Assembly (NCBI GenBank): GCA_948144175.1
Contig: CANXME010000532.1
Span: forward strand, 2,541,001-2,605,000
From: Closterium sp. NIES-65
Taxonomy: Eukaryota; Streptophyta; Zygnematophyceae; Desmidiales; Closteriaceae
Length of the DNA: 64,000 nucleotides
Reading direction: 5' to 3'
Positions 41,896 to 63,814 of this stretch are shown here, piece by piece. The notes under the pieces were generated by a model. The model was not told the DNA's origin. It saw only the letters and a program-made list of their open reading frames with translations, and made no database searches. Each line of letters starts with the position of its first letter. Position 1 is the first letter of the stretch. A program made the position numbers and the translations under genes.

Positions 41896-42665
41896 TGGTA
41901 TCAGCTAGGTTAGGATCCTGTGGGATCCCGTTCCTCCGTTCTCCGTTCGTACCTCCCGAGCCTGATCCTACCTCTCGTTCGTACCAGTTTCGTAGTTACC
42001 GCGCCTAGTACCGAGCCTAGCGTCATCTCCCCCGTCGCGTCACGCCTGTTCCCCCCCGTCGCGTCACGCCCGTTCCCCCCGTCGCGTCGCGCCCGTTCCC
42101 CCCGTCGCGTCGCGCCCGTTCCCCCCGTCGCGTCGCGCCCGTTCCCCCTGTCGCGTCGCGCCCGTTCCCCCCCGTCGCGTCGCGCCCGTTCCCCCCGTCG
42201 CGTCGCGCCCGCCTGTTACCCCCCCCCGTCCCGTCGCCCTGTCCCGTCGCGTCGCCCTGTCCCGTCGCCCTGTCCCGTCGCGTCGCCCTGTCCCGTCGCG
42301 TCGCCCTGCCCTGTCCCGTCGCGTCGCCCTGCCCTGTCCCGTCGCCCTGTCCCGTCGCGTCGCCCTACCCCGTCGCGTCGCCCTGCCCTGTCCCGTCGCC
42401 CTGCTCCGTCGCGCCGCCCTGCCCCGTCGCGTCGCCCTGTCCCGTCGCGTCGCCCTGCCCCGTCGCGTCGCCCTGCCCTTTCCCCCGTCGCGTCGCCCTC
42501 CCTAGGCCCTGGCCTGTCGCCCTTCCTAGGCCCTGGCCCGTCGCCCTACCCTAGGCCCTGGCCCGTTGCCCTACCCTACGTCTTGGCCCGTCGTCCTAGC
42601 CCGCTCTTCCGCTGCGACTGAGTCCTCTTCCCCCCCCGGTTGTTACTCGCCTGTTCGTTCTCACT
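41896..42665 (+). other. Leader of element F with CGTCGC repeats
   Basis: PBS followed by about 450 bp of degenerate repeats (CCCCCGTCGCGTCGCGCCCG, then CGTCGCGTCGCCCTGTCC), ending just before the gag ATG. Open in one frame by composition, but not protein-like. Confidence 0.75.
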
Positions 42666-44383
42666 ATGGCGACTCCGCGAGTTCTTCGTTTCGACGCCGA
42701 CGGTAGACCCCTTGACTTTTCCGTCTGGCTTCTTCGCGCTCGTCGTCTGTTAGAGAGTCAGGTCCAGGGGGGCGAGACCCTCTGGTCACACGCTACTGGT
42801 GACCTCCCCGAGCCCCCCGAGCCTACAGCTTTAGGCCCTGCTCCTGACGACGCTGCTACGGCTCGCTTTGCCCGTCAGCGCGCTGACCGGACGGCTTGGA
42901 CGTCGCGTGACGCTGCGGCCTGCATCGCACTCAGCAGCCTCCTCCCTGAGTCCGAGGAGGTCCACTTTACTCAGGTTCGCACCGCTGCTGCGTACCTCGC
43001 TGCGATTAAGGCCCGCTACTCTACTCCCGCTACTGTCTCTCTCGGCCGTCTTTTCCTCCCGTTCCTGTTTCCTGATCTTGCCTCGTTTGAGCGCTCTGCT
43101 GACTTGATCGCTCACCTCCGCTCGCTTGACGCTAGTTACCGCGCTGCTTGCACTGAGGCACAGCTTGCACTGCTTCCTCCCCCCATGGCGATTACTGTCT
43201 ATTTCATCGCCACTAGCCTCCCTGACCGCCTTGCCTCCGTTCGTGACGCGCTTCTGCTGAAGCACCCTAGTGAGCTGACTATCGAGGTCCTTGAGTCTGC
43301 ACTCAAGGACGTCGAGAGCAACCTTCGTTCGGTAGCTGCCGCCTCTGGTACTGTGTCCCCCCCACTCTTCCACGGGTGCACAGTCCCGCAGTTACCCACC
43401 TTCACTGCCTCTCTTGCCACTGCCGCTACTGACGCGACTGCGGCTGCTGTTACGACTGCGTCGCGGTCCCGCGGCAGGGGGGGCAAGAAAGGTGGTTCCG
43501 GTGGAGGTGGAGGCGGAGGTAGCGGAGGTAGTGGGGGTGCTGTTGCGACTGGCGGTGGTGGGAGTGCAGCGTCTGGAGAGACCCCTCGTGCAGCGGCCGG
43601 TGACTCCACTGCACCTGCTGGTGGCGGCGACCCTCAAGCTCGTCAGTCGCCTCCTGTACTGCCGGCCCCGCTAGGTGGAGCAGCGGCGTGGTACCAGGCT
43701 CAGCGTCAGCAGCACCTTCAGCAGCAGCAGCAGCCCCTTTCCTCCCAGCAGCCTCAGCAGCAGCAGCGTCAGCAGCTGGCTCCGGGGTCGGGGCTGCGTC
43801 AGCCCCAGCGCGGTGCTGCTTACCCTCCCTGCCCCTACCAGGTTCAGACAGGTCCTCGTCGGGGCCACCCTTGTGGCCGCTTTCACCCCCCTGGTCAGTG
43901 CTTTGCTCAGCTCACTGACACGGTCCGGTTGACCTACGGGGTTGGCGGTCCTGCTCCTGACTGGCTTCCTCTGGTTCAACGCTACGGCTCCGCTCTGTGG
44001 GGCATGTCTGCTGAGCAGTTAGTTGATCTGATTAGTGCTCCTCATGCTATGTATGCTGTTGTTGACTCTAGTGTTTCTGACTCTGTTTACTCTGGTGTTG
44101 TTAGCTTAGGTGCTAGTCTTGCTCAGTTGCCTGTTGCTAGTGTAGGTACTTGTGTAGACTCTAGACCAGCGACTACCTCAGAGGACGCTTCGCTGTCGTT
44201 CACACTGGACTCTGGAGCCTCCCACTGCTTCTTTCGGGACAGCACGACACTTACACCACTTCCTGCGCCTGTTTCTGTAGCGTTGGCTGATCCCACTACG
44301 GGACCAGTCACTGCACGTCACACTACCACTTTACCGTGTCCTGCTGCTCCCTCCGGGTCTCTCACTGGGTTTCACGTCCCCTC
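42666..44383 (+). CDS. Element F polyprotein, gag and protease part
   Basis: MATPRVLRFDADGRPLDFSV opens a copia gag domain (about residues 1-235; RARRLLESQVQGG, ARYSTPATVSLGRLF). A basic/Gly-rich segment (SRGRGGKKGGSGG) and a Gln-rich stretch follow. Next comes the motif CX13CX3HX4C (Cys389 in CPYQVQTG...HPCG), the spacing seen in A and B rather than the canonical CX2CX4HX4C. The retropepsin motif SFTLDSGASHCFFRD has its catalytic Asp at residue 515. The coding sequence ends ...SGSLTGFHVPS at the G insertion and resumes in frame at 52207. No stop is present, so before G arrived the protein was presumably functional. Confidence 0.92.
44328..44383 (+). repeat. 56-bp direct duplication, left copy
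   Basis: Starts ACTTTACCGTGTCC and ends CACGTCCCCTC, and abuts the left LTR of G. The identical sequence abuts the right end of G at 52151-52206. It acts as an unusually long target-site duplication. Confidence 0.93.
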
Positions 44384-44594
44384 TGTCACCAAATACAGTG
44401 GTAAAGAACAATATATTTGGTTGTACGCTATAATTGGTGTAGTGAGGTGTAGGATTGGGGTTATGCAACTTTACAGAGGGGTTGTTGAGCTTCAAGGGAA
44501 TGACGCGAAGTTGGTAGCATGGGGAATTGGGACATTGGGAAGAGCTACAAGCGCCTCGAGGAGCAGGGAATCTGCAAGCAACCAGTAAGGCACA
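44384..44594 (+). repeat. 5' LTR of element G
   Basis: 211 bp, TG...CA; differs from the right copy at 2 of 197 shared positions (TAATT/TAGTT and TGACG/TCACG). Confidence 0.88.
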
Positions 44595-44609
44595 TGGCGA
44601 CTCGAACCC
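44595..44609 (+). promoter_or_regulatory. Primer-binding site of element G
   Basis: TGGCGACTCGAACCC is complementary to a tRNA 3' region of the form GGGTTCGAGTCGCCA (T-arm plus acceptor plus CCA). It directly follows the CACA end of the LTR, which fixes the LTR boundary. The tRNA species was not identified. Confidence 0.8.
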
Positions 44610-45076
44610 AACCCAAGGCCATGGAAATGGTCGTGACTCTGGGTAGGGAATAAAGCAGCCTAGCCTAGACACTAGAACCTGCTCTCTCGTTTTGTTTGCC
44701 TACTATAGTGGATTCAATTCACCGTTCTAAGGCTACGGCAGCTAGGTGATACGCAACTGAGGGCAGCCAGCTTGTGGGGGTAGGAATCTCTCACAAAACG
44801 AGAGAGACCTTACTGGCGACATGGATTGCCACGATCAACGTGTGCAGCGTACGTACTCACGGCGGGAACGATCTCCGTCGCGGAGGAGACGCTCGAGGGA
44901 GCGCGGGAGATCGCCGACGCGCTCGCCACGTCGGGCGGCGTACCGCGCGGATCCGGTGATGCCGACGGACGTGCGAAGGGAAGAAAGCGGGGAGGACCTG
45001 CGCGTCAGGTCAGAGCCGTGGAGGCGGCCGACGATCAGCAACCCGTGGAACCTGGCAGAAGGCCAACGCGGGACGG

Positions 45077-46939
45077 GTGGAAGGCGTGACAACGCCGACG
45101 ACGACGGATTGCCCACTGCGCGGGGCGGCGGAAGGCGCGAAAACGCCGACGACGACGGATCGCCCACTGCGCGGGGCGGCGGAAGGCGTGAAAACGCCGA
45201 CGACGACGGATCGCCCACTGCGCGGGGCGGCGGAAGGCGTGAAAACGCCGACGACGACGGATCGCCCACTGTGCGGGGCGGCGGGAGGCGTGAAAACGCC
45301 GACAACGACGGATCGCCCACTGCGCGGGGCGGCGAAAGGCGTGAAAACGCCGACGACGACGGATCGCCCACTGCGCGGGCCGGCGGAAGGCGTGAAAACG
45401 CCGACGACGACGGATCGCCCACTGCGCGGGGCGGCGGAAGGCGTGAAAACGCCAACGACGACGGATCGCCCACTGCGCGGGGCGGCGGAAGGTGTGAAAA
45501 CGCCGACGACGACGGATCGCCCACTGCGCGGGCCGGCGGAAGGCGTGAAAACGCCGACGACGACGGATCGCCCACTGCGCGGGGCGGCGGAAGGCGTTTT
45601 CCCTGTTGCGCGGGAAGGAGGAGGGCAAAGGTACAAGAGGAGGGATGAAAGGGAGCGAGCCCGACACGGAAAGGTGCGGGGGGAGGACGAGGAGCACGGG
45701 AACGAGGAGTACTCACCTGCGGGACGGCAGGGAGAGGGAAAGAGAGCATCAGCGGGTGTCTACCGCTCGCCTGAGCCGAGACCAGGATATGACCGCCGAC
45801 GGCGCATGGCGATGGGTGAAGGTCGGTGGGCCGAGCGGGCACAGCGGGAAGAGAGGTTGGACTATGAGGAGCGACGTCAGCAGAGCCCGCCTGAGTGGGA
45901 GCGGGTGTGCAACAGAGAAGGACGAGAAAGGGGAAGGCGATCACCGCACGGCTCCAGAGCAGAAGGAGGAGGTCGGCAGCGGAGGGAGCAAGAGTGGCAT
46001 CGCCAGGAACGTTCACCTGTGCGGGGAAATGGACGTTGGGAGGATCAGGAAAGGTGCAGGAGACAGAGCGAAGACGACCAGAGGAAAGGTCGGAGTCCAA
46101 GTGGCACTAGGAGGCTATGGCAGCATGGAGAAGGATCTAGTGGGGCCAGGGCAGCTCGTGAGGGACTGGAGCGAGCACTGTACGGGACAAGCGCAGGAAG
46201 CAGAGGAGACAAAGGAAAGCAGCGAGGGGCTGCTCTGCCAGATCGGGGAGGCTCGGGGAGTTGGGATTGGGGGAGATGGGGCGCAACGGCAGCACCACGG
46301 GTGGAGGTGCCGGTGCGCTTCACAGGGAACGAGAACACAGGACCAAGCCTCAAGAACTACCTGATGCAGATCAGCAATGTGAAGTATCGGTGCGATCGAA
46401 GCGGGATGGACCCCATAGACTTCTTCTTGAGCCTGCCAAACACACTCGGGGGGGAAGCAGAAACCCTATATCGCATGAAGATGGGAGAGTGGTTGAGGAG
46501 GGCCGATGAAGATGAGGAGGACCCGACGGTGCTATTTCTGGACCGGCTGAGAAAGCAGTTTCCAGGGCACACAGCGGCGCGCATCAAAGAGTTTCAAGAG
46601 TTCAAGAGGAGGGACGAGGAATCTTTGCTAACGTACTACGGCCGGCTGATGAATCTAGCGGAGGACGTGGTGTGCACGGACAGCAGTATGGTCATTAGTA
46701 AATTCCTAAATGGGCTGGACAAGGGACTGGCAGGGGGACTGAGAATGCGGGTCTACGAGCTGGGAGCAGACGCGACACCTGAAGAGGTGTTTGAGCTAGC
46801 AGAGAGAGTGGAGCTGGCACAGAGAAAGTATGAGGTGTACCTGCCGCGGCCAACAGAGAGGAAGAATCCTGCTTGGGCTGCAGCAATGATACCTGAGACG
46901 GGAGGAAGAGAAGAGAGCCGACAGGAAAGAGGAGCTTAG
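45077..46939 (+). CDS. Element G gag (N-terminal repeats plus retrotransposon gag domain)
   Basis: After the 51-bp array comes a long Arg/Glu-rich charged segment. The retrotransposon gag domain runs from about 46310 to 46850 (YLMQISNVKYRC, DPIDFFLSLPNTLGGEAETL, FLDRLRKQFPGHTAARIKEF, YYGRLMNLAEDVV). It ends in GRE-ESRQERGA and a TAG at 46937-46939. The same frame continues immediately into three CCHC zinc knuckles, so the TAG is either a mutation (CAG expected) or a readthrough site. The frame lacks an ATG upstream of about 45806; translation may start elsewhere, with initiation uncertain. Confidence 0.82.
   Translation: MEGVTTPTTTDCPLRGAAEGAKTPTTTDRPLRGAAEGVKTPTTTDRPLRGAAEGVKTPTTTDRPLCGAAGGVKTPTTTDRPLRGAAKGVKTPTTTDRPLRGPAEGVKTPTTTDRPLRGAAEGVKTPTTTDRPLRGAAEGVKTPTTTDRPLRGPAEGVKTPTTTDRPLRGAAEGVFPVAREGGGQRYKRRDERERARHGKVRGEDEEHGNEEYSPAGRQGEGKRASAGVYRSPEPRPGYDRRRRMAMGEGRWAERAQREERLDYEERRQQSPPEWERVCNREGRERGRRSPHGSRAEGGGRQRREQEWHRQERSPVRGNGRWEDQERCRRQSEDDQRKGRSPSGTRRLWQHGEGSSGARAAREGLERALYGTSAGSRGDKGKQRGAALPDRGGSGSWDWGRWGATAAPRVEVPVRFTGNENTGPSLKNYLMQISNVKYRCDRSGMDPIDFFLSLPNTLGGEAETLYRMKMGEWLRRADEDEEDPTVLFLDRLRKQFPGHTAARIKEFQEFKRRDEESLLTYYGRLMNLAEDVVCTDSSMVISKFLNGLDKGLAGGLRMRVYELGADATPEEVFELAERVELAQRKYEVYLPRPTERKNPAWAAAMIPETGGREESRQERGA
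45079..45597 (+). repeat. 51-bp tandem repeat at the start of G gag
   Basis: About ten copies of a 51-bp (17-codon) unit. One + frame reads GGRRENADDDGSPTARG and another GVKTPTTTDRPLRGAAE; antisense frames are open too. Only the second frame continues into the gag core. An ATG frame from 44821 (Arg/Ser-rich) reads through the array in the first frame and stops at 45648, so the true gag start is unresolved. Confidence 0.9.
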
Positions 46940-49900
46940 ACACGCACCTGCCACCGATGCAAGCAGCCAGGGCATCGGATGAGAAATTGCAGGAATTGCG
47001 ACACCTGTGGGAAGCCAGGACACCGCCGAAGGGACTGCCCGGATGCACCCAGCTGCGAGGTGTGTGGGAAGCGGGGGCATAAGGGGAAGGACTGCTACCA
47101 ACGCACAGGAGGGCCAAGGAGGACGCCAGAGGAGATAGAAGGGCAGATAGGGAGATTGCAAGCGCAGCTGCAGGCACTGGGAGGGAAGAAGGAGAAAGAG
47201 GCAGGATTGTATGCAAGGGAAGAGGATGACGAAGCAGAGGTGATAGATGAGCCAGCGCTTGAGTACAATTTCATGGTGTTGCGCAGCCGAGAGGAGTTGG
47301 GCCTGCGCAGCGGGGGCAGGGATGGAAGAAAAGAGCAAGTGGTGAGGGAGAGGAGCAGGCCAAAGAGAGCTCCAGAGGAGAAGGGTAGAGGGGAAGAAGA
47401 GCCAGCCAGGCATCCCAAGGAACGGCTAGCCAGTCAAGCGACGGTGCTGGTGGCAGGAGCGGGAACAGTGGCAGTGGGAGGGGAAGTGGCAAGAACTGCG
47501 ATCATAGATACGGGGGCACAGAGTGTGATGTTGGGGAGGCGGTTAGCAGAGAAGCTGGGGCTGAACGGGCCGGGACAGCACATAAAACGAGGAATGCTAG
47601 TAATGACAGCAGAGGGAGGTGAGCCTAAGTCCCTGCCGTGCACCAAGACTCCAGTGGAGATAGTCCTGATGCCGGGGAAGGAGGAGCAGACTAGTATAAG
47701 GCTGCAGTGTGGGATTTCAGACTCAGAAGATTTTGATGTACTGCTAGGCACAGACCTGATTTGGGGAGTAGGGATGACCATCTGCACGTGGAAAGAAAAG
47801 GTAAAGTTTCGAAAGCAGTATTGGGAGCGGGGGAGCAAGACGGGAGAGCTGCCTGTGTCATTCACTAAGCAGGAGCCAAAGAGGGCGTACACGGGCGAGC
47901 AGATGGGGACCAGGGAGAGAGGGAGAGCAGGGATCGTGGGAAAAGCAGCAGCAGTCAACGCATGGCAAGAGCCGATAAAGCTGGTCGAGCTGTTTGGGGG
48001 AATAGGAGCAGGGCTGGCAGCAGTGCTCAAGGCAGGAGTGGCCGTGAGGGAATGGGTATACGTGGAAAATAACGAACAGGTGAGGAAGATGGCAGAGCAC
48101 CATGCGAGAAAGCTGCAGCAAGAGTACCCCGAGCTACTAGAAGAAGCAGTGATAGTGAAGGCAATGCGAGGAACAGTGACTGATGTAAGAAGCATCACGC
48201 GGGAGGTGGTGAGGAGCTGGGGGCATGTGGACCTGCTGGTGGCCGGATGGGAGTGTCAGGCTGTGTCAAGGGCAGGGAAAGGAAAGGGATTAGGAGATCC
48301 AAGAGGGGCGCTGCTAGTGAACTTGCTGTGCATCATAGACTGGATTAAGGAAGGACAAGAGAAGGTGGTATACCTGCTGGAGCACCTGGATCTGGAAGGG
48401 GACTGCAGGGAGCCTGTCAGGAAAGTGCGGGAGTTAGTGACAAGGAAGCTGGGGAAAGGGGTAAGATGTGATGCGGCCAGGCTGGGGGCACGAGCTCATC
48501 GTGTCCGGCGATACTGGCAGAACGTGGTCACAGATGAGCAACTGCAGCAGGAGCTGGATGGAATACGCAGGGACTGGAGCCGGACCGTGCGAGAGATTTT
48601 AGAGCCCGGTAGGACAGCGGCACCTGTTAGGAAAGGCAGGCATGAGACACAATGCCCATGCAACAAAGTGGGGGCAGAGCGCAGGGCGTGGCCGACATTA
48701 GTGGGGTACGAAGGGGCAGCTGGGTTCAGAGAGGAAGATGGGCTGCCAGGAGAAGGCATGGTGTATGACTGCCGTTCGAAGAGATGGGAGGAGCCAAGTG
48801 CGTTAGAAAGGGAATTAGCAATGGGGTATGGAGAGGAGGCCACCAAGGCAGCAGGGGTGACGGAAAAGGAGAGAAGAAGAGCATTAGGACAGGCCATGGA
48901 CGGACAAGTTATGCAGTGGTTACTGAGGCGGATGTGGAGAGGGCTGGTGCTAGAAGAGGAAGGAGGAGAAGAGAGTGTGGGGACAAGGGTGAAAAAGGTG
49001 GGGGCATGGGTATGCATGGCAGCCAAGGAAGAGCCAGCATGGGTCGTGGGGAATGCAATGAGTGAGAAAGGAAAAGAGGCAATGCAGGCGGTGCTGGCGA
49101 GGTATAGGCACGCCTTCGCGTTTACCATGCAGGAGCTGGGGAAGTGCACTGTGAAGGAGATGGAGCTGAAGCTGGTGACGGATGAGCCGGTATTCCAGAG
49201 GAAGCGGAGGATGACCCCTGGAGATGAGGATGTCTGCAAGGAGAAATGTAAGGAGCTGATGGAAGCAGGGTTGATACAGAGGTCGGAATCAGAGTATGCA
49301 ACACCGACAGTAGTAGCTGCCCGAAAGGACCTGCTGGGGGAGGTGCTGAGCAGACGCATGTGTGGGGATTATCGGGCACTGAACAAGGTGACAGTGCCTG
49401 ACCGCTACCCAATGCCCACAGCTGAAGATATCTTTGACCGGCTGGGGGCAGGTGAGGTCTTTAGCACGCTAGACTTAAGACAGGGGTTCAACCAGATTAG
49501 GATAAGGAAAGAGGACGTGCGGAAGACGGCGTTCCATGGAGCAGATGGCCTATACGAGTGGCTGTTCATGCCATTCGGGCTGCGAAACGCGTCTGCCATC
49601 TTTCAGAGAGTAATGGACAGCGTGCTGAGGGGGCTGGAGTGCGCGGCGTGTTACATAGATGATGTAGTAATTTTCAGCCGGACGGAAGAAGAGCATGTGA
49701 GAGACGTGGAGCAGACACTGAAGGCGTTGGCAGCAGCTGGGCTGACATGCCATCCGAAGAAGTGTAGGTGGGGAGAGGCGACAGTGCAGTACCTGGGCTA
49801 TGAGGTTAGGGGCGGGCAGCTAGGGATCCAGCAGGCGAAGATTGAGGTGCTGAGCAGGCTGCAGCAGCCAAAGGACCGAAGCGGACTAAGGGCGGTACTG

Positions 49901-51838
49901 GGATTTCTGAGCTATTACCGCAGGTTCGTCCCGAATTTCAGCAAGCGGGCTGCACCACTGAACGGGCTGCTGAAGGAGGACAGGAAGTGGGAATGGGGGA
50001 TGGAGCAGGAAGCAGCATTGAAAGATCTGATGGAAGCGGTGCAGACAGCAACGATTCTGCAGCTACCCAAGACTGACAAGCCCTTTTGCCTATACACCGA
50101 CTGGAGCAGCCAAGGCATGGGGGCAATCCTGTGCCAGGAGTTAGATGGGGAGGAGAGGGTTGTGGCATACGCAAGCAGGAGCTGCAGCCCAGCGGAAGCC
50201 AAGTACAGCTCTTACCACGGAGAGGGGCTGGCAGCCGTGTGGGCTGTAAAACACTTCAGGGTATACCTGCAGGGAAGGAAGTTCACACTGATCACAGACC
50301 ATCAACCCCTGCAATGGCTGATGACCCACCAAGGGCTGACAGGGAGGAACGCGCGTTGGGCCGTGACGCTGCAAGAATATGACTTCAAGATACGCCACAG
50401 GCCGGGAAAGACTCTGCAGCACGTGGACGGGCTCTCAAGGAACCCGCCGGCAGCAGAGCCAGTACACACGCTGATGTTGCTGGCAAGGCAAGGGGAAGAG
50501 GCAGCAGCAGGGAAGCAAAAGGGGCCAAAGGATATTTGGGAAGATCCAGCAGCACTGCGATGGATTCAGGGAGAAACTGATGAGGAGGAGCAGGTCTCTG
50601 ACAGGGTCAGGGCAAGGGGGCACCATTACCGATGGTACCAGGGACAGCTGCAGTTACAGACGGCGGATGGATGGAAGCTGGTACCTGCACCACAGGACAG
50701 GGAGGGAGTGATTAAGGAGGTGCACAGGAAGCTGGGGCACTTCGGGCACGAGCGCACGACGGAACTGTTGAAGACCGGCTGGTGGTGGGAGGGTATGAGA
50801 AGGCAGGTCAGGGAATGGGTCAGCGGATGCGAAGGTTGTCAGAGGAGCAAGGCCAGCCTAGCACAGGCGAAGCAGGAGCTGCAGTCACTGCCGATAAGAG
50901 GGTTAGGGTTCAGGTGGTCTCTCGACATAGCTGGTGAACTGCCGCTGAGCAGGGGAGGCAAGCGATATATACTGCTAATGGTGGAACACGCGAGCAAGTG
51001 GGTAGAGGTGTGTGCATTGCCGAGCAAAGATTCCAGGCACGTGGCAAAGGCATTCAAGGGACAGGTCCTGTGCAGGTTTGGGGCACCAGGGGAAGTGCTC
51101 ACAGATCAGGGGACGGAATTCAGAGGGGAATTTTAGGCACTGCTGGACGAGGCAAGGGTGACACACAGGCTGACATCTAGGTACCACCCACAGAGCGATG
51201 GGTTGACTGAGCGCCTGGTGCAAACCCTGAAACGGAACCTGAGGGCATATGGAGAGAAGCGCAAGAGAGACTGGGATGAGGAGTTGGACTGGATTGCGGC
51301 GGGGTACCGATTTGGGAAGCAGGCCTCCCTGAAGGACTATTCCCCGTATAGCATGCTGTTTGGGAAGGAGCCAATCCTGCCAGTGGGAGCACCGAGGGTG
51401 CTGACAGATGTGGTGCAAGTCACAGGAGCAGAGCAGTGGGTGGCACTAGCGGAGGCACGGGCACGATACATGCGGGAGATGCTCCCTGCGGCCCTGGAAA
51501 ACCTGCACACGGCGCAGTTGAGGGACGCACACAGGTATGAGCAGCGGCAGCAGCAAGGTGGCAGGAAGGCCAGACCAGCGGTGATGGAAGGACAAGAGGT
51601 GTACCTGCGCAGGGCAAAGAGGGATACGCTGGACGTGGGGCTAGGAACGCAGAGATGGAAGGTGAAGGAGGTGAGAGGGTCTGGAGTGCTGGTGCTGGAG
51701 AACGACAAGGGGGAAAAGACGGTGGATCATCAGACTAATGCTGCGGTAGTGGATGGACGAGGGCCTCAGCGAGAGGGTCCTGTGACCCGGGCACGGGCAG
51801 CCCGAGACCGGGCACAGGAGGGGGTAGGTAGTGGCTGA
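46940..51838 (+). CDS. Element G pol: CCHC, protease, C5-methyltransferase, RT, RNase H, integrase
   Basis: Residue numbers count from Met 46979. Three canonical knuckles lead (CHRCKQPGHRMRNC, CDTCGKPGHRRRDC, CEVCGKRGHKGKDC), then a retropepsin (IIDTGAQSVMLG, Asp177). The methyltransferase covers about 334-650. RT follows (MCGDYRALNKVT, TLDLRQGFNQIRI, catalytic YIDD at 892-895), then RNase H (CLYTDWSSQGMGAIL, TDHQPLQWL). The integrase has an HHCC zinc domain (GHFGHERTTELL...CEGCQRSKA) and a DDE core (SLDIAGEL, LTDQGTEF, YHPQSDGLTERLV). A TAG at 51134-51136 splits the integrase core between the second Asp and the Glu. The frame then continues to TGA at 51836-51838 through an SH3-like tail (WKVKEVRGSGVLVLENDKGE). 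No chromodomain seen. Confidence 0.92.
47978..48940 (+). other. C5 cytosine DNA methyltransferase domain within G pol
   Basis: The AdoMet-dependent C5-MTase motifs appear in order. Motif I is KLVELFGGIGAGLAAV (residues 334-349) and motif II WVYVENNEQV. Motif IV is LVAGWECQAVSRAGKGKGLG, with the catalytic Cys at residue 426 (codon 48254-48256). Motif VI is VYLLEHLDLEGD and motif VIII GARAHRVRRYWQNVV. A target-recognition-like segment follows (HETQCPCNKVG...EEPS), then motifs IX/X (ERELAMGYGEEAT, RRALGQAMDGQVMQWLL). The usual Pro before the catalytic Cys is Glu (ECQ for PCQ) and motif VI has H where N is usual. The domain is in frame with protease and RT, so it is part of the polyprotein. Whether it is active is unknown. 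Confidence 0.9.
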
Positions 51839-51953
51839 GGCCGAGGCACGCAAAGTCTGCAGGCAGGCAGGGAAGTGCAGAAAGAAGAAGGGTAAGAGGA
51901 CAAGGGAGGAAGCAGCCAAGGGGTGAGGTGAGAAAGAGGAGATCTCCGACAGC

Positions 51954-52150
51954 TGTCACCAAATACAGTGGTAAAGAACAATATATTTGGTTGTACGCTA
52001 TAGTTGGTGTAGTGAGGTGTAGGATTGGGGTTATGCAACTTTACAGAGGGGTTGTTGAGCTTCAAGGGAATCACGCGAAGTTGGTAGCATGGGGAATTGG
52101 GACATTGGGAAGAGCTACAAGCGCCTCGAGGAGCAGGGAATCTGCAAGCA
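51954..52150 (+). repeat. 3' LTR of element G, truncated at its right end
   Basis: Matches 44384-44580, but the last ~14 bp (ACCAGTAAGGCACA) are missing. The F-derived 56-bp duplication begins instead. The normal CA end of the retrotransposon is therefore absent here. Confidence 0.88.
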
Positions 52151-52206
52151 ACTTTACCGTGTCCTGCTGCTCCCTCCGGGTCTCTCACTGGGTTTCACGT
52201 CCCCTC
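52151..52206 (+). repeat. 56-bp direct duplication, right copy
   Basis: Identical to 44328-44383. It re-supplies the F codons for TLPCPAAPSGSLTGFHVPS so that F resumes in frame. Confidence 0.93.
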
Positions 52207-55200
52207 GTTCTCCCGGAACTTGGTGGGCGTGCGACCCCTCGTGAGCCAGCACGTGGGTGTGTGGTTTGAGCCTTCTGGAGAGACTGCGGTGTGTGTTGAC
52301 GGAGACTCTTACCAGCCTCTTGCTACCTTTACTGCTGAGCCGGGCTCGGGTCTCTACACTCTTCACACTGGCCCGCGTGCGCCGCAGCAGCAGCCGCAGC
52401 AGCAGCAGCAGCCGCAGCCGCAGCAGCAGCAGCAGCAGCACCAGCGGCCGCACCAGCAGCCCCCCCTACTGCCACTGCCCCCGGTTCCCCCCCCCGTTCG
52501 GGTCCCCGCGTCTCACCAGGTTGCTACGTCCCCCCAGGTGTCTGTGTCGTGTCAGGTTCCTACGTCTCTTCCAGTCGCTGCGTCGTGCTCCTGCCGGTCG
52601 CTTGCCCACCCCACCGTTCTGTGGCACCACCGGATGGGGCACCCGTCCCTTCCACGTCTGCGCGCTATGTCTAGTCAGCGTCTTGTCCTAGGCCTCCCAC
52701 GTGTCTTGCCGTCGCTGCCGCCTTCGCCTGCGCCGCCGTGTCGTCCCTGCGTCGAGGGTAGGCTGCGCGCCACCCCTCACTCCTCCTCCCTTCGTCCGGC
52801 CACCGAGCCTTTTGAGACGCTTCAGTTGGACGTCTGGGGCCAAGCCCCTCGTCTAGGCCCTGAGCGTGAGCGTTACTTTCTGGTGGTCGTTGACGACTTC
52901 TCCCACTACACCACAGTGTTCCCTCTGGCGAAGAAGTCTGAGGTGACTTCTACGCTGATCAGGTGGTTGCTCACCACCGAGGACACTCGTGGTCGTCGTG
53001 TCAGCTGTCTCCACTCCGACCGTGGGGGTGAGTTTCGCTCCGGCATTCTCGCTGGATTCTGTCGCGAGCAGGGCATTCGTCAGTCCTGGACGCTTCCAGA
53101 GTCCCCACAGCAGAATGGGGTTGCTGAGCGCCGCATAGGCCTGGTCATGGAGATCGCCCGCACCTCCCTGACTCACGCCTGTGCCCCCCATTTTCTGTGG
53201 CCCTACGCGGTCAGGTACGCCGCGCACCAGCTGAACCTCTGGCCACGTGTCTCTCGACCAGAGGTTTCACCGACCAGTCTTTGGACAGGGTCCCCTGGTG
53301 TTGCGTCGCGGTTTCGTGTCTGGGGGTGCTTGGCTCTTGTCCGCGACACCTCCGCGGACAAGCTCTCGCCTCGTGCCGTCCCCTGTGTCTTCCTTGGTTT
53401 CCCTGAGGACTCCTCTGACTTCACCTTTTACCACCCTCCCTCTCACCGGTTCTTTGACTCCCGTGACGTTCGTTTCGAGGAGTCCACTCCGTACTACGTC
53501 AGGTACCCCAGTCGAGGTCTCCCGGTTCCTCCCCCCCCTCTCTTCCTGACTGCCGTTCCCCCTCCTGCTCCCCCGGTACAGCCTCCCCCCCCTGGTCCAG
53601 CCCCGTCAGGTGTGTCCCAGGCTACCCCTCCTCCTTCGGTAGCCCCTCCGGTACAGCCTCCCTCCCCACAGTCCTCCTCGCAGCGTGCCGCTGGTGCTAG
53701 CTCTCGAGAGGTTGGTACGGCGCCTGTTCCTGTACCGGTTTCTGGTTCTGGGGGTGCTGGAGTTGGAGCTGGAGTTGGAGCTGGAGTTGGCACTGGAGTT
53801 TCTGGTTCTGGGGGTGCTGGAGTTGGAGCTGGGGTTGGAGCTGGAGTTTCTGGTTCTGGAGTTGGAGCTGACCCGGTGGGTGCAGAGGACTCTTGTCGTC
53901 CGGGAGCTGGTGCTGGCCGCGCGGACACTGGGGGTGCTGCGTCTGGGGGTGAGGGTGCGCCTCCTTCCGGTTTAGGTGAGCCTGGGTCTGGAGCTGGTGT
54001 TAGTGCTGCCTCTGGGGGTGGTGCGCCTAGTTCTTCTGGGGTGGACTCTGGAGCTGCCGCTGCTTCGGACACTACTCCACCCCCCCACCCCTACCCGACT
54101 AGGCACCAGGCTCGTGTTCGCTGTGCCCGTGACGAGCAGCTGGCGTTGGAGAGAGAGGAGAGGGAGTTACAGCGGCTGGAGGAGCAGCAGCAGCAGCTGG
54201 AGCCGCAGGAGCAGCAGCAGCAGCAGCAGCAGCTGGACCCGCAGGAGCAGCAGTCCCAGCAGCAGCCGCGTCCGCAGCAGCAGCAGTCGCAGCCGCAGCA
54301 GCAGCAGCCACTTCCTCCTCCTGTCTCGGGTCTTCGGATCCTTGGTCTCCCCTCCCCTTCTCCTCCCTCCTCCGCCTCTCCTCCTGTCTACGGTCCCACG
54401 TTTCCTCCTCCTGACTCCTCCCCCGCTGTTTTCCCCAGTTCTCCGCCCTTGTCCTCTTCTCCTCCGTCTCGTTCTTGGGCTACTCGTCGCTCCCCTCGTG
54501 CTCGTCCCTCGTCTCCTGTTCCCTTCACTGACCTTCGTACTGCCTTCCTTCTTTCTAGTCCACCTCGTCCGTCTCAGTCTGTGCTTCCGTCTCCTCCTGA
54601 GTCGGCCCTCACTGTGTCGCTCCCTACTCCTGTCACTGACTACTACCGCACGTACCGTCCTGTTCTCTCTCGTGTTCTCGCCTCTCTTGTTACTCACCCT
54701 CGTGCCTCTGTGTCCTCTGTGTCCGCTCTTACTGCCGCAGCTACTGACTTTGCCTCTACCCGCCGCCTTGACTACGCCACCACGCTTGTGGCTGCTCCTC
54801 CTACCAGTCCTCTGGCCGTCGGGGGTGTGTCTACCCTTGGCCGTGACGCCCTAGAGGACAGGCAGTTTGAGCTAGAGTTCCTGGCGGCTGCTTCCCCTCA
54901 TCTCTGTGCCATGCTCCTCGCCCCTGAGGGTGACCCCGACGCCCTTGACATTCCGACTCCTCGCACTTACGCTGAGGCAGTGTCAGGGCCTTGGGCCTCT
55001 CAGTGGAGAGCTGCCATGGACGCAGAGATGGCCTCCTACAGATCCACAGGCACCTACGTCGATGAGGTTCCCCCCCCTGGGGCGAACGTAGTCGACGGCA
55101 TGTGGATCTACAGGGTGAAGCGGCCACCGGGATCTCCCCCGGTCTTCAAGGCGCGCTACGTGGCTAGAGGTTTCAGTCAGCGTGAGGGAGTTGACTTCTT

Positions 55201-56524
55201 TCAGACCTTCGCACCTACCCCGAAGATGACCACTCTTCGGGTGTTACTACACGTAGCAGCACAGAGAGACTACGAGTTACACTCTCTTGACTTCTCCACT
55301 GCTTTCCTTCAGGGCAGCCTACACGAGGAGGTCTGGTTGCGTCGTCCCTCGGCCTTCACTGGCACCTTCCCTCCTGGGACCCAGTGGAGGCTGAGGCGAC
55401 CTGTTTACGGTCTTCGCCAGGCCCCTCGTGAGTGGCACGACACTCTGCGTTCTACCCTCTCTGACCTTGGGTTCCAGCCGTCTTCTGCCGACCCGTCGCT
55501 GTTCGTTCGTCGTGGCTCCACACCGTTCTTTGTTCTGGTTTACGTCGACGACCTCGTTTTCGCCACTCCGGACAGGGTTGCTTTGGCAGACGTGAAGTCC
55601 GAACTGCAGAAGAGACACACGTGCACTGATCTTGGTGAGCTGCGCCACTACCTTGGCCTGCAGATCACCAGGGACAGAGCCGCTCGCACCATTACACTCT
55701 CACAGTCACACATGGTGCAGCAGGTCCTTCAGCGGTTCGGGCTTCAGCACTCCACCGTACAGCGCACACCTCTAGCTGTTGACCACAGACTCACTGGTCC
55801 CTTTCCTGACGAGCCGTTTGAGCCTAGTGGTCCCTACGCAGAGCTTGTGGGTTGCCTCATGTACCTGATGACTTGTACTCGCCCGGACCTCGCCTTCCCT
55901 CTCAGCATCCTTGCGCGCTTTGTTGCGCCAGGGAGACACCGTCCTGTTCACTGGACGGCAGCTGTGAGGGTGGCGAAGTACCTAGCGACTACATCAGGCG
56001 TGGGGCTAGTTCTTGGAGGGCAGCAGTCTGTCGTACTCACTGGTCACTGTGACTCCTCTTACGCTGACGACGCTGAGACTCACAGGTCTACTCAGGGGTA
56101 CTGTTTCAGTCTGGGTTCTGGAGCTGTTTCCTGGCGTTCCACGCGCTCCTCTTCTGTCTCGACCTCTACAGCTGAGGCTGAGATTTACGCTGGTGCCATG
56201 GCGGCACAGGAGTTGCGTTGGTTGACCTTCTTGCTCGCCGACCTTGGTGAGCGGCCGAGCTCTGCACCGACCTTGTTCACTGACAACAAGGCGTCGATCC
56301 TCCTCTGTCGTGAGCCGCGACTGGAGAGCAAAGTGAAGCACATTCACGTCAGGTACTTTCTTCTGCGAGAGTTGCAGAGACGTGGACAGGCTCGCTTCGA
56401 GTTTGTGGAGTCCGAGGCCAACACTGCAGACATCTTCACCAAGGCGCTTCCGCCTCGTGACCACCAGAGGTGTTGTGTGCAGTTAGGCCTTGTTGACACA
56501 GGTTCTAGTCATGTGCAGGCTTGA
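52207..56524 (+). CDS. Element F polyprotein, integrase, RT and RNase H part
   Basis: Continues the F frame after G. It encodes the rest of the protease, a Gln-rich linker and the GAG-pre-integrase (CRSLAHPTVLWHHRMGHPSL, CRPCVEGRLRATPHS). The integrase core has DDE residues in QLDVWG (Asp781 of the joined protein), LHSDRGGEFRS and SPQQNGVAERRIGL. A Gly/Val- and Gln-rich linker follows. RT runs from MWIYRVKRPPGSP through YVDDLVFAT (Tyr1685), then RNase H (TGHCDSSYADDAETH, STAEAEIYAGAMAAQELRW, FTDNKASILL, NTADIFTKALPP). All catalytic motifs are intact and no stop occurs before TGA 56522-56524. Some linker arrays (GAGVGAGV) are shorter than in A. Confidence 0.94.
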
Positions 56525-56604
56525 GTTTATTGCCTGCTTCGTCTGTACTCTTGCTATATATACTTGTGATCTCTTGGACTGGCCTTGTGGCCACTGTTGC
56601 TTGT

Positions 56605-56642
56605 GCTCAGAGTGTGTGGTGACGTTGTGATCCACCCTGAGC
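56605..56642 (+). ncRNA. Conserved 38-nt stem-loop in 3' UTR of element F
   Basis: GCTCAG/CTGAGC and GTGG/CCAC stems with loop TGACGTTGTGAT, 80 bp before the 3' LTR; preceded by the GGCC-TTGT-GGCC hairpin. Confidence 0.75.
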
Positions 56643-56721
56643 TTTGTTTTCTTTTGGACTGGTCTTGTGACCGTACTCTTTTTGTTTTTGCTAGACACCC
56701 CTCACTTAGGCTATGGGGGTG

Positions 56722-56831
56722 TGTCAAATGTTGTAGCCTGTAGTGAGGTTTGTCTTAGGGGGTACAGAAGTTAGGGTTTGTCATATGTACCCCAACCAAC
56801 ATCAATGCAACACCCATTCCTCATTCTGACA
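56722..56831 (+). repeat. 3' LTR of element F
   Basis: 110 bp, identical by eye to the 5' LTR; followed by AATAC. Confidence 0.95.
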
Positions 56832-57308
56832 AATACGTACAATGAGCGAATGTGACACAGGCCATCACAGGTGACGACATCGCTATTCGCACACGCGGTC
56901 TGTTCGAACACAGCGACGTCGCCCACAAAAGAGCGACGTCGCCAAACATTGGGTCCCTCGCTTGTGTGTTTTCTCGAGCGCTGCGACCACCAAATGCGGA
57001 GCCAACTGGATTGCTAGAAATACAGCCAACGTCTGGCCGGGTCGCAAACGTTCATGGGCGACCCGGAAGACTGTGGACCAATCATATCAGTCGTTTGTGC
57101 GGAATTGTGTGTCACCTATCCCAACCTGTTCGAACAAACGTGTTCGAACGCGCGGGATGATGAAAATCGGGCTTGAGGTGACAGCTCTGTTCAAATAGGC
57201 GAAATTGTGCTTCGCGACGTCACGATCACCACTACGAACATAGGCGAAACGAGTAACGTTTCGCCTGTTCGAACGAGTGTGTTGTTCGAACCGACAGGTG
57301 AAGCGCCC

Positions 57309-58916
57309 TAAATTTCTAATTGACAAGAGAAAATGTTTTGTGATACCGGTAGGCTGAGCATCGACTGTAGACGTACGCGCTAGTCACACCTGTCACACAG
57401 AAAAATATCCTCCCTTCCAACCAATCCAAGCGATCCGCGCGGAACCTGCCAGAAGAAAGCTAGCTGCTTTTTCCGGTTCGATTCCAGATCGGCGGCGAGA
57501 GGTTCGGTTCGGTTCGTCTCGGCTCATCAGATAGGGCATTTGGTGGTTGTTGACTTGCGGGCAAACCATGTGCAACGTGGTCTGCGAAGTGAGGAACGAT
57601 GGATGTGTGCGCCGTGATTCGCGATGATATCTTCGTGATCGCGTAGCTTCATCCCACGCGCTGCCCCGCACCGCCATGTCGTGGCCGCTCCCACGCGTTT
57701 CATCCTCTCGCGCGCTCCGCTCTCTCCCGGCCTGTGCTCCGCGAGCGTATTCGCGTCTCGCCACCTTACACGCTTCTCGTTACGTTTGCCTCGGGGTAGC
57801 TGCTGCGGGCACGTGTCAGACCACCGTTGGTCGGTCGAGCTATTTCAGTAGGCTTTTCTGTCCGATTTTCCACTTTCAGGCGCAGATTCCGCCGCCGGGG
57901 GTACATTGCGTCCCGATTCGCGGTTACTTGCCGTCTGTCGCCCATACGAGTCGTCGTGCGTCGCTGTGCATCGCGCAGCGACTCTGCGAGTCTGGGCGAA
58001 GCGGATTGCGTGCAAGTCGTGTGCGCGGCGAGGGTTCGAATCTCGCCGCCGGCTTTTTCGCCAGGGTATAATCACCTGCTTCCTGGCTTGCGCACTTCGA
58101 TGCATCTAATGAATGGAGTCATCCATAGCAGTGCATATACGCATCATGCTTTTAGAGATCCGATGCTGCGGAATGTGGTATTTTGGAACTGGGACGAGAC
58201 GATCTGCACTGGGGGCAGAGTGTTATTTGAAGCATATTAAAAGGCTGGGTGTGGAATGGTGCAGACGAGAAGCTATAAGAACTCCAAGGAAGGAAGGAGA
58301 TGGAGGAGGGAGGGGAAAATAGATTCAGGGTTCAGGGTTTCGGGTGCTGGTCGGTGGATCAGGGCTGGTTGCTAGTTGATCTGCGTGCGTTCACCAAGCC
58401 GAATCCTCTCTCGAACGCAGGTTTCGTGACTGATATGGCAGTCAGCACGGCAATTGCCACACTTGGCAGCTCAGCACTTTGTTCAGCGTGAAATAGAAGA
58501 GGCTTGTGTCTTAAAACGCGGATGCGAAGGGATCCTGTATCAGGCGTCTCTCGCCCGCCGTAACTGCTACGGTGCTGCCTGTGCCTCGCTTCGCGTCGTC
58601 TTTGGCCTCGTCAATACGCTGCCACATAGCCCACCTCAGCTTGTTTCGAGTCGGCTCAGAGCACATTTTCGAGTCACCTTAGAACATCTCTGGCCTCGTC
58701 GATCCCGTGCCACATTGCCCGCCTCGCGCCTGCTAGCCCCTCGTGCCCGTGCCTTCCCTTCTGCCTTCCCCTACCGTTTCGCTCTTTTCATTCTTTGTAA
58801 CTTACTTTCTCCCTCCCTCCCTCCCTCCCTTCCTCGTCCCGCTTCTCGTTGTGTGCACACTTGGCAGCCAGCTGGGACCAGCAAGAGGGGGTTCACTAGT
58901 AGCAGCGCCGGCAGCA

Positions 58917-58954
<38 letters not shown>

Positions 58955-58993
58955 GGTGGTGGTGGTGGTGGGTGCAGCAGAGTAGCCCGTCCG
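57309..58993 (+). other. Spacer and probable upstream region of the PAP-like gene
   Basis: Unique sequence without a convincing gene. A 131-codon ATG frame at 57676-58071 (MSWPLPRVSSSRALRSLPAC) is Arg/Ser-rich and could be a transit-peptide exon, but has no supporting homology. A CCTC run lies at about 58810-58835. GAGTCGGCTC and GAGTCACCTTA near 58650-58690 resemble decayed copies of the intronic palindrome. Confidence 0.4.
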
Positions 58994-61900
58994 ATGGCCC
59001 TCACACAGGCTACGCCCATGGCTGCCCTGCCGTCTCTTGCTCTCTTGAGATGCTTCGCCGCGCCCGTTCCCACCCTCCACACCGCATCCCCCTCCGCCAC
59101 TTCTTTCCTTCCCCTCAAAAGCCAGTGCGCCAGGTCACGTGGCATCAGCACCGCTGCTTGCTGCAGCAGTAGCAGCAGCACCAGCAGCAGCGGGAACAAC
59201 AACAACAGCAGCAGCAGCGGAAACAGCAGCAGCAGCAGATCCAGTGGCAGTGGCAGCGGAAACAACAGCATGAGAGGCAGTTCACCCCCTGGAAGCAGGG
59301 GCTATGGCAGCCTGGCTTCTGACATCGATTCGGCCGCTCCTGCTGCTGCTGCTCCTGCGGCACTCACTGCTGCGGCGGCTGCGGCTGCTGCTGGTCACGG
59401 GACGCACGCAGGGGAGGGTTCCACAGCGGAGAGAAGCCGGAGGAAGAAGGAGCGGGCGCAGGGGAAAAGCGGTGCTGCTTCTCCCGCTGGTCATGGTGCC
59501 CATTCGGGTAGCAAAAGCGCTCGTGGAAGTGGTAAAGGTGGTGGTGATGGCGCTGGTGGTAGCAGTGGTGGTGTGGGTAGAGCCGGGGGTGGTGCGGCTA
59601 GCAGCAGCAAGAGTGGCCGTGGCAAGAGGTCAAAAGGCAAAGGGAAGGAGGGAGGTACGATACTTCCGGTCCTTGTTACTTTAGCGCTGCTTTCTTGTGT
59701 CACATCATGCTCTTTTTTGTGCCCTCCCCTTGCTCATCCATCCCCCACCTTCTCCACCAACGCCCTTCCGCCCTCTCATGCTCTCTTCCCCCTTTTGCCT
59801 TACCCTTTGCCGCCCCCCTCTGCTCCTCCTCCTTTCCCCATTCTTTTCCTTCTTCCCCTCTCCCCTTACCCTTTGCCGCCCCCCTCTGCTCCTCCTCCTT
59901 TCCCCATTCTTTTCCTTCTTCCTCTCTCCCCTTACCCTTTGCCGCCCCCCTCTGCTCCTCCTCCTTTCCCCATTCGTTTCCTTCTTCCCTTCTCCCCTTA
60001 CCCTTTGCCGCCCCCCCCTTGCTCCTCCTCCTTTCCCCATTCTTTTCCCTCTTCCCCTCTCTCCTTACCCTTTGCCGCCCCCCTCTGCTCCTCCTCCTTT
60101 CCCCATTCTTTTCCTTCTTCCCCTCTCCCCTTATCCTTTTCCGCCCCCCTCTGCTCCTCCTCCTTTCCCCATTCTTTTCCCTCTTCCCCTCTCCCCTTAC
60201 CCTTTGCCGCCCCCCTCTGCTCCTCCTCCTTTCCCCATTCGTTTCCTTCTTCCCCTCTCCCCTTACCCTTTGCCGCCCCCCTCTGCTCCTCCTCCTTTCC
60301 CCATTCTTTTCCTTCTTCCCCTCTCCCCTTACCCTTTGCCGCCCCCCTCTGCTCCTCCTCCTTTCCCCATTCTTTTCCCTCTTCCCCTCTCCCCTTACCC
60401 TTTGCCGCCCCCCTCTGCTCCTCCTCCTTTCCCCATTCGTTTCCTTCTTCCCCTCTCCCCTTACCCTTTGCCGCCCCCCTCTGCTCCTCCTCCTTTCCCC
60501 ATTCGTTTCCTTCTTCCCTTCTCCCCTTACCCTTTGCCGCCCCCCCCTTGCTCCTCCTCCTTTCCCCATTCTTTTCCCTCTTCCCCTCTCCCCTTACCCT
60601 TTGCCGCCCCCCTCTGCTCCTCCTCCTTTCCCCATTCTTTTCCTTCTTCCCCTCTCCCCTTATCCTTTTCCGCCCCCCTCTGCTCCTCCTCCTTTCCCCA
60701 TTCTTTTCCCTCTTCCCCTCTCCCCTTACCCTTTGCCGCCCCCCTCTGCTCCTCCTCCTTTCCCCATTCGTTTCCTTCTTCCCCTCTCCCCTTACCCTTT
60801 GCCGCCCCCCCCTTGCTCCTCCTCCTTTCCCCATTCTTTTCCCTGTTCCCCTCTCCCCTTACCCTTTGCCGCCCCCCTCTGCTCCTCCTCCTTTCCCCAT
60901 TCTTTTCCTTCTTCCCCTCTCCCCTTATCCTTTTCCGCCCCCCTCTGCTCCTCCTCCTTTCCCCATTCTTTTCCCTCTTCCCCTCTCCCCTTACCCTTTG
61001 CCGCCCCCCTCTGCTCCTCCTCCTTTCCCCATTCGTTTCCTTCTTCCCCTCTCCCCTTACCCTTTGCCGCCCCCCTCTGCTCCTCCTCCTTTCCCCATTC
61101 TTTTCCCTGTTCCCCTCTCCCCTTACCCTTTGCCGCCCCCCTCTGCTCCTCCTCCTTTCCCCATTCTTTTCCTTCTTCCCCTCTCCCATTTCTCCCTTAC
61201 CTTTTTTCTCTTCACTCTTCCCCCCCTCCCCGCTTTCCCCCTCCCCCGTCCTGCCCGCTCCGCCTTACGCCTTAGCCCCTGTCCCCCTTCTCTGCCGCCC
61301 TGTCCCTGTCGTCCCCCTCTGCCCTCACCGCATGGAGCATGCATAGGGGCGGCCCCAGCAGTGGTGCTGCGAGCAGGGCAGCACCCAATGCGCCCGCACC
61401 TCATCCCCTTGGCCCTTCCCCCTCTCCTCTCTTACCGGATTCTCTGTCCCATTCCTATGCCGTGCTGTCCCCATCAACCCCCCTGTCCCCATCACCGCAT
61501 GGAGCATGCATAGGGGCGGCCGCAGCAGTGGTGCTGCGAGCAGGGCAGCACCCAATGCGCCCGCACCTCATCCCCAGCTTCACCTGGCATGTGCTCCGGG
61601 GGCTGCGACGCCACGGTGAGAGAGGCGCTGGGCGGGGGGGGGGGTGTGGGTGGGTGTGAGTGTGAGTGTGCTCCGCACAGGTGCTCAGCTTCACCTGGCA
61701 CGTGCTCCAGGGGCTGCGACGCCACAGTGAGAGGCGCTGGGTGCGTGGGTGAGCGGCATAGGTCACTCGTGGAGTCACAAGGAGTCAACAAGTCATCCGG
61801 GTGGGGTCTGGTGGGTGGATTCTGGTCGACTCTTCAGTCAACAAGCCCAGCTTCACCCAGCACGTGCTCCGGGGGCACTTTGATTCTGAGACGTCCCTGA

Positions 61901-62203
61901 TTGTGCGCACGGGGCACCAGACGTCAAGGCAAGGCGCTGGTTGGGTGGGTGGGGAAAGGAAGGGACGAAGGGAGAGGAAGGAGGGTGACGTAAGGTACGG
62001 GTGAGGGGATTGACTGGCAGAGAGGTTGGAGGGGAGGGGAGTGAGGGGTGTCAGGGTTGTTATGCCCAATCGTTATGAGGTTATGATCCACAAAAGAAGT
62101 GGCTTTTGAGGCGCCTCAAAAGGGGTGTCAGGGTTATGTCCAATCGTCATGAGATCGTGGTCCACAAGAGAAGTGGAATGTGTGTCTGTTCTCCATACAC
62201 CAA

Positions 62204-62274
<71 letters not shown>

Positions 62275-63552: not shown

Positions 63553-63644
63553 GTGAGGAGGAGCGGAAGGGAAGGGGAGGGGGAGGGGAATGGGAGGGGA
63601 GGAGGGTGAAGAGAGGGTGAGGCGATGGGGAAAATCGTCAAGAG

Positions 63645-63710
63645 GGGACCTTCCCCATCTGCCACGTGATGGTGGGCACGTGATGGTGGGCAAGGAGATT
63701 GTTGGGGTGA
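63645..63710 (+). repeat. Partial copy of PAP-like exon [14 protein letters not shown]
   Basis: CTTCCCCATCTGCCACGTGA repeats from 63507, then contains an internal direct repeat of GCACGTGATGGTGGGC-type sequence and ends with the same GTGAGG donor. Confidence 0.75.
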
Positions 63711-63814
63711 GGAGGAGGTGGGGAAAGGGGGGGAATGAGAGGCGGGAGGGGGAAAGGTTGCAGGAAGGGTGGGCGATGGGGCAAGTTGCAGGGAGACTGT
63801 TGAATAGGGGAGAG

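Follow-up and report, generated by a model that had tools for sequence, protein, structure and literature searches.

The window, a 64,000-nucleotide stretch of the Closterium sp. NIES-65 genome (contig CANXME010000532.1, our contig C532, positions 2541001–2605000 of an 874-Mb assembly), comes from an alga of the class Zygnematophyceae, and it carries a Ty3/gypsy-like retrotransposon whose pol frame includes a cytosine DNA methyltransferase (MT) domain. On the forward strand, the frame at 46940–51136 encodes, in order, zinc knuckles, an aspartyl protease, a DNA_methylase domain, a reverse transcriptase (RT; RVT_1), RNase H and an integrase, as assigned with Pfam. The original prediction, made from the nucleotide sequence, placed a complete C5 cytosine methyltransferase (C5-MTase) between protease and RT within a single open frame. 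The nature and position of the domain were borne out by a significant match to PF00145 (DNA_methylase; 24.4 bits against a cut-off of 22) and by phmmer matches in the PDB to DNMT3B and DNMT3A (~1e-7). The single-frame claim holds from the zinc knuckles through RNase H into the start of the integrase; the window copy has in-frame TAG codons at the boundary between gag and the zinc knuckles (46937–46939) and inside the integrase (51134–51136), both outside the MT.

A profile of the MT family scored 479 bits on the real domain and no more than 8.3 bits on 2,000 residue shuffles. Because this profile was built with the window sequence included, we rely on the PF00145 and PDB matches as the independent proofs, and these two rule out a chance match of motifs. 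The domain contains motifs I (LVELFGGIGAGL, 47981–48016), IV (AGWECQ, 48242–48259), VI (LLEHLD, 48374–48391), VIII (AHRVRRYW, 48494–48517), IX on the target-recognition side (RAWPTL, 48683–48700) and X (RRALGQAMD, 48875–48901). This linear order and a Rossmann-type C5-MTase fold place it in the C5-MTase family. The domain is whole, with the fold, the S-adenosylmethionine (SAM) motif, the catalytic Cys of motif IV, the Glu of motif VI and the HRxR of motif VIII, including its Arg. The description of the enzyme as complete needs qualifying at two residues: the Pro that usually precedes the catalytic Cys is absent, its place being taken by a Glu codon (48251–48253) before the Cys codon (48254–48256), and motif VI reads EH instead of EN. 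Pro before Cys is usual, but we do not take it as defining C5-MTases, and close relatives vary at this residue.

Profile scores identified the domain as DNMT3-type (DNMT3A, 1.3e-23; DRM2-type entries, from 6.5e-12; HhaI, 6.1e-11) and, together with the linear motif order, disfavour an origin from DRM. Identity to the catalytic domains of DNMT3A and DNMT3B is only ~18–24%, the Closterium MT differs from both in having Glu rather than Pro before the catalytic Cys, and Pfam found no ADD or PWWP domain in the window frame.

Active-site variation

We surveyed the active site in 99 non-outgroup rows (98 proteins and the window), in 84 of which motif IV was readable. The residue before the motif IV Cys was Glu in 62 of these, Pro in 20, Asp in one and Ser in one. 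The catalytic residues were conserved nearly throughout the readable retroelement rows, with the motif IV Cys in 83/84, the motif VI Glu in 85/85 and the motif VIII Arg in 77/79 and 77/78. The residue following the motif VI Glu was Asn in 72 of 85 rows, His in 12, including the window, and Asp in one. Among 30 copies fetched from the NIES-65 genome, the Glu and Cys of motif IV were invariant even though GAG and GAA, and TGT and TGC, are both used, so the variant cannot be put down to sequencing error or to decay; the motif VI Glu was likewise kept in 30/30. The Pro and Glu states of motif IV require at least four changes on a 56-row tree of the MT whose root is insecure. In M.HhaI, the backbone adjoining the position of the motif IV Pro contacts the flipped cytosine, and for this reason Glu at this position could alter base recognition.

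Genomic copies and selection on the domain

Searching the MT protein against its own genome yielded 112 scored matches among 1,548 candidates, the window's own match included, with identities from 100% down to 59%; some of these are one insertion represented on two contigs (C73/C1923 and C1666/C2336). A PF00145 profile search of the genome gave 123 scored matches of 902 candidates and shared nine places with the first list. The six PF00145 loci that we read all encode such MT elements or similar MT pieces, and no cellular Closterium DNMT was found among these six. In all 30 fetched loci the MT is accompanied by protease and by at least part of RT. Among named proteins, the closest belong to Closterium NIES-53, NIES-54 and NIES-68, with others from NIES-65 and Naga37s-1. 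Several copies lie within open frames of more than 2,000 amino acids, and one 10-kb stretch read whole contains a single 2,462-amino-acid frame from zinc knuckle to integrase, which indicates that gag-pol is probably one polyprotein. Neither the window MT nor the window RT found a relative in the virus database IMG/VR; a profile scan there returned 34 loci, almost all of them partial matches at 24–55% identity.

The MT is under purifying selection. In six pairs spanning subfamilies, the ratio of nonsynonymous to synonymous divergence (dN/dS) was 0.047–0.075 for the MT (upper 95% bounds ≤0.105) at synonymous divergences (dS) of 0.77–1.59, compared with 0.029–0.075 for the protease and 0.022–0.035 for RT, across the 30 loci. 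Single values are rough because many dS exceed 1 and approach saturation; the pooled values, restricted to pairs with dS of 0.05–1, leave those pairs out and were 0.067 for the MT (136 pairs), 0.092 for the protease (207 pairs) and 0.036 for RT (181 pairs, from 26 of the 30 loci). The constraint on RT is thus about twice that on the MT, which is about equal to that on the protease. Among recent pairs, the pooled ratio of nonsynonymous to synonymous differences (pN/pS) was 0.38, 0.34 and 0.35 for MT, protease and RT, respectively. Across the 30 copies, 198 of 335 MT residues are invariant.

Element ends and insertion sites

Genomic copies follow the plan A1-coding-B1-A2-B2, in which repeat A is ~409 bp and repeat B ~125 bp. 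Among the 18 copies in which we inspected the ends, A2 is followed by B2 in 11 (C2065, C73, C1923, C2200, C1770, C2079, C2059, C1548, C2400, C1305 and C1891), and C106 shows B1-A2 alone. C1666 and C2336 (L091 and L095) have A1 and a single B without A2 while keeping the 4-bp duplication, and C1093 (L085) and C1592 (L086) were seen by eye to end in a single B-like sequence without A2; these four copies are possibly B1-B2 recombinants. In C1652, A2 continues into leader sequence rather than B2, and no repeat was matched in the 3' stretch of C1672. The element ends are TG...CA. The joint between B1 and A2 reads CTCCGACA-GC-TGTCA in nine of the ten copies read, including the window, with CC in C1891, whereas the A2-B2 joint varies by a few to ~12 bases between copies (L066/L077, L070/L079, L087, L093 and L097), as if each cycle produced it afresh through a template jump.

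A 4-bp target duplication was recognized by eye in all ten copies with both outer ends readable. These represent eight distinct sites, since C73/C1923 and C1666/C2336 have common flanks, and the duplicated sequences are GTGG, AAAT, CGAG, TCGG, CCAC, CGGC, AGAG and CCAT; CGAG (C2200) and CCAT (C1305) are weaker cases because they lie within tandem repeats.

The order protease-RT-RNase H-integrase (rve) is that of Ty3/gypsy elements (Metaviridae). Two identical long terminal repeats (LTRs) are lacking: the complete copies that we read start with A and end with B, and we therefore describe the element as having a Ty3-like pol rather than as a standard LTR element. The ~200-bp repeats of the window were considered as ordinary LTRs and rejected, as the genomic copies show them to be the start of the longer repeat A in the arrangement A-coding-B-A-B. 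By-eye inspection for a primer-binding site gave no convincing tRNA match. The element also falls outside the tyrosine-recombinase class of DIRS/PAT elements, which are not known to make a target duplication; it has instead an rve integrase and 4-bp duplications at eight distinct sites. What we observe is a DIRS/PAT repeat plan joined to an rve integrase.

A second domain architecture

In a survey of 71 rows (70 proteins and the window), the MT precedes RT in 29, of which 21 including the window are from Closterium, and follows RT in 18, none of them from Closterium; no RT was seen in the remaining 24. The order in this after-RT set is RT-RNase H-MT-integrase in 17 rows and RT-RNase H-MT in one, P0024. 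Its MTs (P0022, P0025, P0064 and others) are homologous to that of Closterium and mostly share its Glu-Cys; they differ in following RNase H, whereas the Closterium MT precedes RT. Pfam placed a PHD finger downstream of the integrase in P0022 and P0064, and a PHD is named in precomputed Pfam lists for most other proteins of the set. In P0022, P0055, P0064 and similar proteins the integrase is preceded by the MT, itself downstream of RNase H, and followed by a PHD finger, which puts a reader and a writer module in one polyprotein.

The MT tree retained 56 of 68 rows after 12 near-duplicate, gappy or doubtful rows had been dropped (P0017, P0018, P0083, P0045, P0048, P0049, P0061, P0056, P0074, P0077 and the outgroups P0106 and P0108). 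It placed the after-RT set, P0024 included, in one clade and Closterium in another (supports of 99 and 100 in the Shimodaira–Hasegawa-like approximate likelihood ratio test, SH-aLRT), with its root and the polarity of the Pro and Glu states insecure because the program flagged long outgroup branches. Clade and domain order match imperfectly, as the after-RT clade also takes in P0058, a protein in which we saw protease and MT but not RT. The single named chlorophyte match, Haematococcus lacustris P0035, has protease and MT without RT or integrase and was not among the 68 rows; given this one similar protein, the after-RT set is perhaps of chlorophyte origin. The MT may have been either relocated or exchanged between the two positions in pol.

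CpG decay and probable cytosine methylation

We looked for a trace of methylation by counting singleton changes in three sets of near-identical copies, which cover 23 of the 30 loci. Transitions numbered 50/7890 at CG, 52/14069 at CHG, 47/31320 at CHH and 29/40599 at A/T, and transversions 3, 25, 27 and 29, respectively; CG exceeded CHH in transitions with an odds ratio of 4.2 (p = 6e-12). This C-to-T decay at CpG suggests that the genomic copies are probably methylated at CG, a trace that does not identify the responsible enzyme. In the window, pol (46940–51838) has an observed/expected (o/e) CpG ratio of 0.54 and a TpG+CpA ratio of 1.42, compared with 0.70–0.78 and 1.17–1.20 in the surrounding Copia halves.

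The copy in the window

The features of the window copy are listed in Table 1. The element is nested within a Copia element, whose halves lie at 42600–44588 and 52088–56524, and further Copia-like frames, named by eye, extend across much of the window (2454–6807, 8480–10813 and 21367–22362). The first 197 bp of A1 are found again at 51954–52150, where the truncated 3' end of the copy lies. The copy is flanked by a 56-bp target duplication, in contrast to the 4 bp at the eight other distinct sites. This duplication and the truncated A2 look like the outcome of an insertion without normal integrase action, and we infer that an incomplete cDNA was inserted into a staggered break. The gag part (44960–46939) had no match in a Pfam search, and the 51-nt tandem array in its leader (44974–45687) is open in more than one frame.

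Table 1 Features of the retrotransposon copy and its flanks in the window
Feature	Position	Strand	Basis
Left copy (56 bp) of the duplicated target stretch in the host Copia element	44328..44383	.	Exact 56-base repeat
5' terminal repeat A1, ~409 bp, start TGTCAC	44384..44792	+	Extent from comparison of genomic copies
gag part of the gag-pol frame, closed by in-frame TAG	44960..46939	+	ORF (open reading frame) list
51-nt tandem array in gag leader, 714 bp, ~14 units	44974..45687	+	Repeat search
pol frame, from zinc knuckles through protease, MT, RT and RNase H into the integrase; closed by in-frame TAG	46940..51136	+	
Aspartyl protease (Asp_protease_2), DTGAQS active site at 47507–47524	47468..47755	+	Pfam
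DNMT3-type C5-MTase domain, folded core ~47954–48952	47903..48985	+	Pfam and similarity
Glu-Cys of motif IV, where Pro-Cys is usual	48251..48256	+	
Reverse transcriptase (RVT_1)	49355..49807	+	Pfam
RNase H (RT_RNaseH)	50075..50380	+	Pfam
Integrase: H2C2 zinc finger, rve core (spans TAG 51134–51136), C-terminal part	50693..51835	+	
Repeat B1, ~125 bp, 3' end CTCCGACA, overlaps end of pol	51827..51951	+	
Repeat A2, stops after 197 of ~409 bp; B2 missing	51954..52150	+	
Right copy (56 bp) of the target duplication, Copia resumes	52151..52206	.	Exact 56-base repeat of 44328–44383

Discussion

We propose, with a probability of roughly 0.55, that in a Ty3/gypsy-like lineage of Closterium a DNMT3-type de novo methyltransferase is fixed within Gag-Pol and that the element uses it to methylate its own cDNA or insertion. 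In the virus-like particle the MT would be released, or kept with RT. Its target would be the element's own double-stranded cDNA or the newly inserted copy, probably at CG sites, with methylation preceding or accompanying integration by the DDE integrase. A new copy would then land already marked, and may escape sensing or stay quiet at little cost to the host. Under this proposal the enzyme would be active and the Glu-Cys motif a variant maintained by selection, and the selection on the domain argues that the MT is probably functional.

Retrotransposon-borne methyltransferases have been known as a kind since 2018, when capture was reported in charophyte algae and dinoflagellates, the charophyte case being KnitGypsy-Dnmt3 of Klebsormidium nitens (de Mendoza et al. 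2018, PMC5890265). The original prediction had assigned the Closterium element to this type of lineage, and a DNMT3-type, Pol-borne domain under purifying selection agrees with that assignment; the closest named relatives of the window MT are from Closterium, and no K. nitens sequence was among the matches of our MT protein searches. KnitGypsy-Dnmt3 resembles the Closterium element in its intronless, non-rearranged DNMT3-type domain within a Gypsy-type Pol frame, in purifying selection (Ka/Ks <0.2 there, pooled 0.067 here) and in its repeats, which the Fig. 4 legend equates with those of a DIRS retrotransposon (A-B-A-B), our A-coding-B-A-B being truncated in the window copy. It differs in that its key amino acids are reported as conserved, whereas motif IV in Closterium is Glu-Cys; the host algal class also differs, and for the Closterium element we measured 4-bp target duplications. 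SymbioDIRS-Dnmt3 and SymbioLINE-Dnmt of Symbiodinium, described in the same paper (PMC5890265), are likewise retrotransposon-encoded DNMTs, the DIRS case sharing split repeats, but they rely on either tyrosine recombinase or LINE endonuclease where the Closterium element has an rve (DDE) integrase and 4-bp duplications. What is new here is the active site with Glu-Cys, the pairing of split repeats with a DDE integrase that leaves 4-bp duplications, and the second architecture; in a literature search, which did not query Glu-Cys itself and left most subscription journals outside, we saw neither the Closterium elements nor the Glu-Cys motif nor the PHD-bearing set described. The original prediction had mentioned none of the Glu-Cys motif, the split repeats, the element set with MT after RNase H and the damage to the window copy.

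Several observations weigh against an MT that methylates its own element. The window MT has Glu where motif IV usually has Pro, and a stop interrupts the MT in 7 of 30 copies. Host enzymes could wholly explain the CG decay signature. CHG transitions are raised, but CHG transversions rise as well, an ambiguous signal on which we claim no CHG methylation signature. Low CpG is not specific to pol, with an o/e of 0.58 at 56600–64000 of the window against 0.54 in pol. KnitGypsy-Dnmt3 expressed in yeast produced no methylation, a result that its authors considered inconclusive (PMC5890265).

The Glu-Cys loop might instead have shifted the MT to another chemistry or substrate. The domain might act on RNA, on RNA:DNA hybrids or on single-stranded cDNA; or its binding might depend on SAM yet transfer no methyl group, and it could then serve next to RT in processivity, packaging or nucleic-acid chaperoning, for instance. 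The non-Pro residue in 64 of 84 rows (62 Glu, one Asp, one Ser), its constraint in the 30 genomic copies, the EN-to-EH change that the window shares with 11 other rows (12/85) and the adjacency of MT and RT in the Closterium rows would fit such a shift. We nevertheless consider it unlikely: the catalytic Cys, Glu and Arg, which pure binding would not require, persist in almost every readable row, and 20 of the 84 rows, located in more than one part of the tree, retain Pro-Cys in otherwise similar domains. A role in host-element balance, with the MT silencing new insertions and keeping transposition low and copies tolerated rather than protecting cDNA, seems to us less likely still. Such a host-beneficial or self-limiting role was raised as an option by de Mendoza et al. 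(PMC5890265), and many copies with CpG decay do coexist (112 scored of 1,548 candidates), yet host CG methylation alone would account for the decay, and Copia elements, in which we noticed no MT, persist in the window too.

Two further explanations are refuted by our data. That the MT is a functionless passenger, captured once and now decaying, could be read from the stops in 7 of 30 MTs and the two stops elsewhere in the window pol; for the lineage, this highly improbable account is refuted by the selection test (dN/dS of 0.047–0.075 at synonymous divergences of 0.77–1.59), and the 198 invariant residues and the homologous modules of the second element set also oppose it. That a host DNMT was artificially joined to a retrotransposon, by the assembly or by the gene model, has a negligible probability: we found nothing to support it, and the 112 scored matches, the protease and whole or partial RT beside the MT in 30/30 loci and the occurrence of the domain in proteins of Closterium NIES-53, -54, -65, -68 and Naga37s-1 refute it, so the original prediction also passes on its own worry that the domain was a chimeric join absent from other copies.

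Returning to the proposed self-methylating element, a more general version would have a widespread algal retroelement lineage that fixed a Glu-Cys C5-MTase acting on RT products in the particle and moved or exchanged the module between two positions in pol; we put this forward tentatively, as a conjecture that may well fail. A predicted parasite-borne de novo methyltransferase present in ~100 or more copies of one assembly, in a genus close to land plants, makes testable the puzzle of an element that carries the class of enzyme its hosts use to silence elements. The split repeats of the element, paired with a DDE integrase and 4-bp duplications, are informative about the ways in which evolution can recombine terminal repeats and integrases. 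The selected Glu-Cys is a natural variant of a much-studied catalytic dipeptide and, if the enzyme is active, the Pro-Cys of motif IV would be dispensable and de novo methylation would be part of the transposition cycle.
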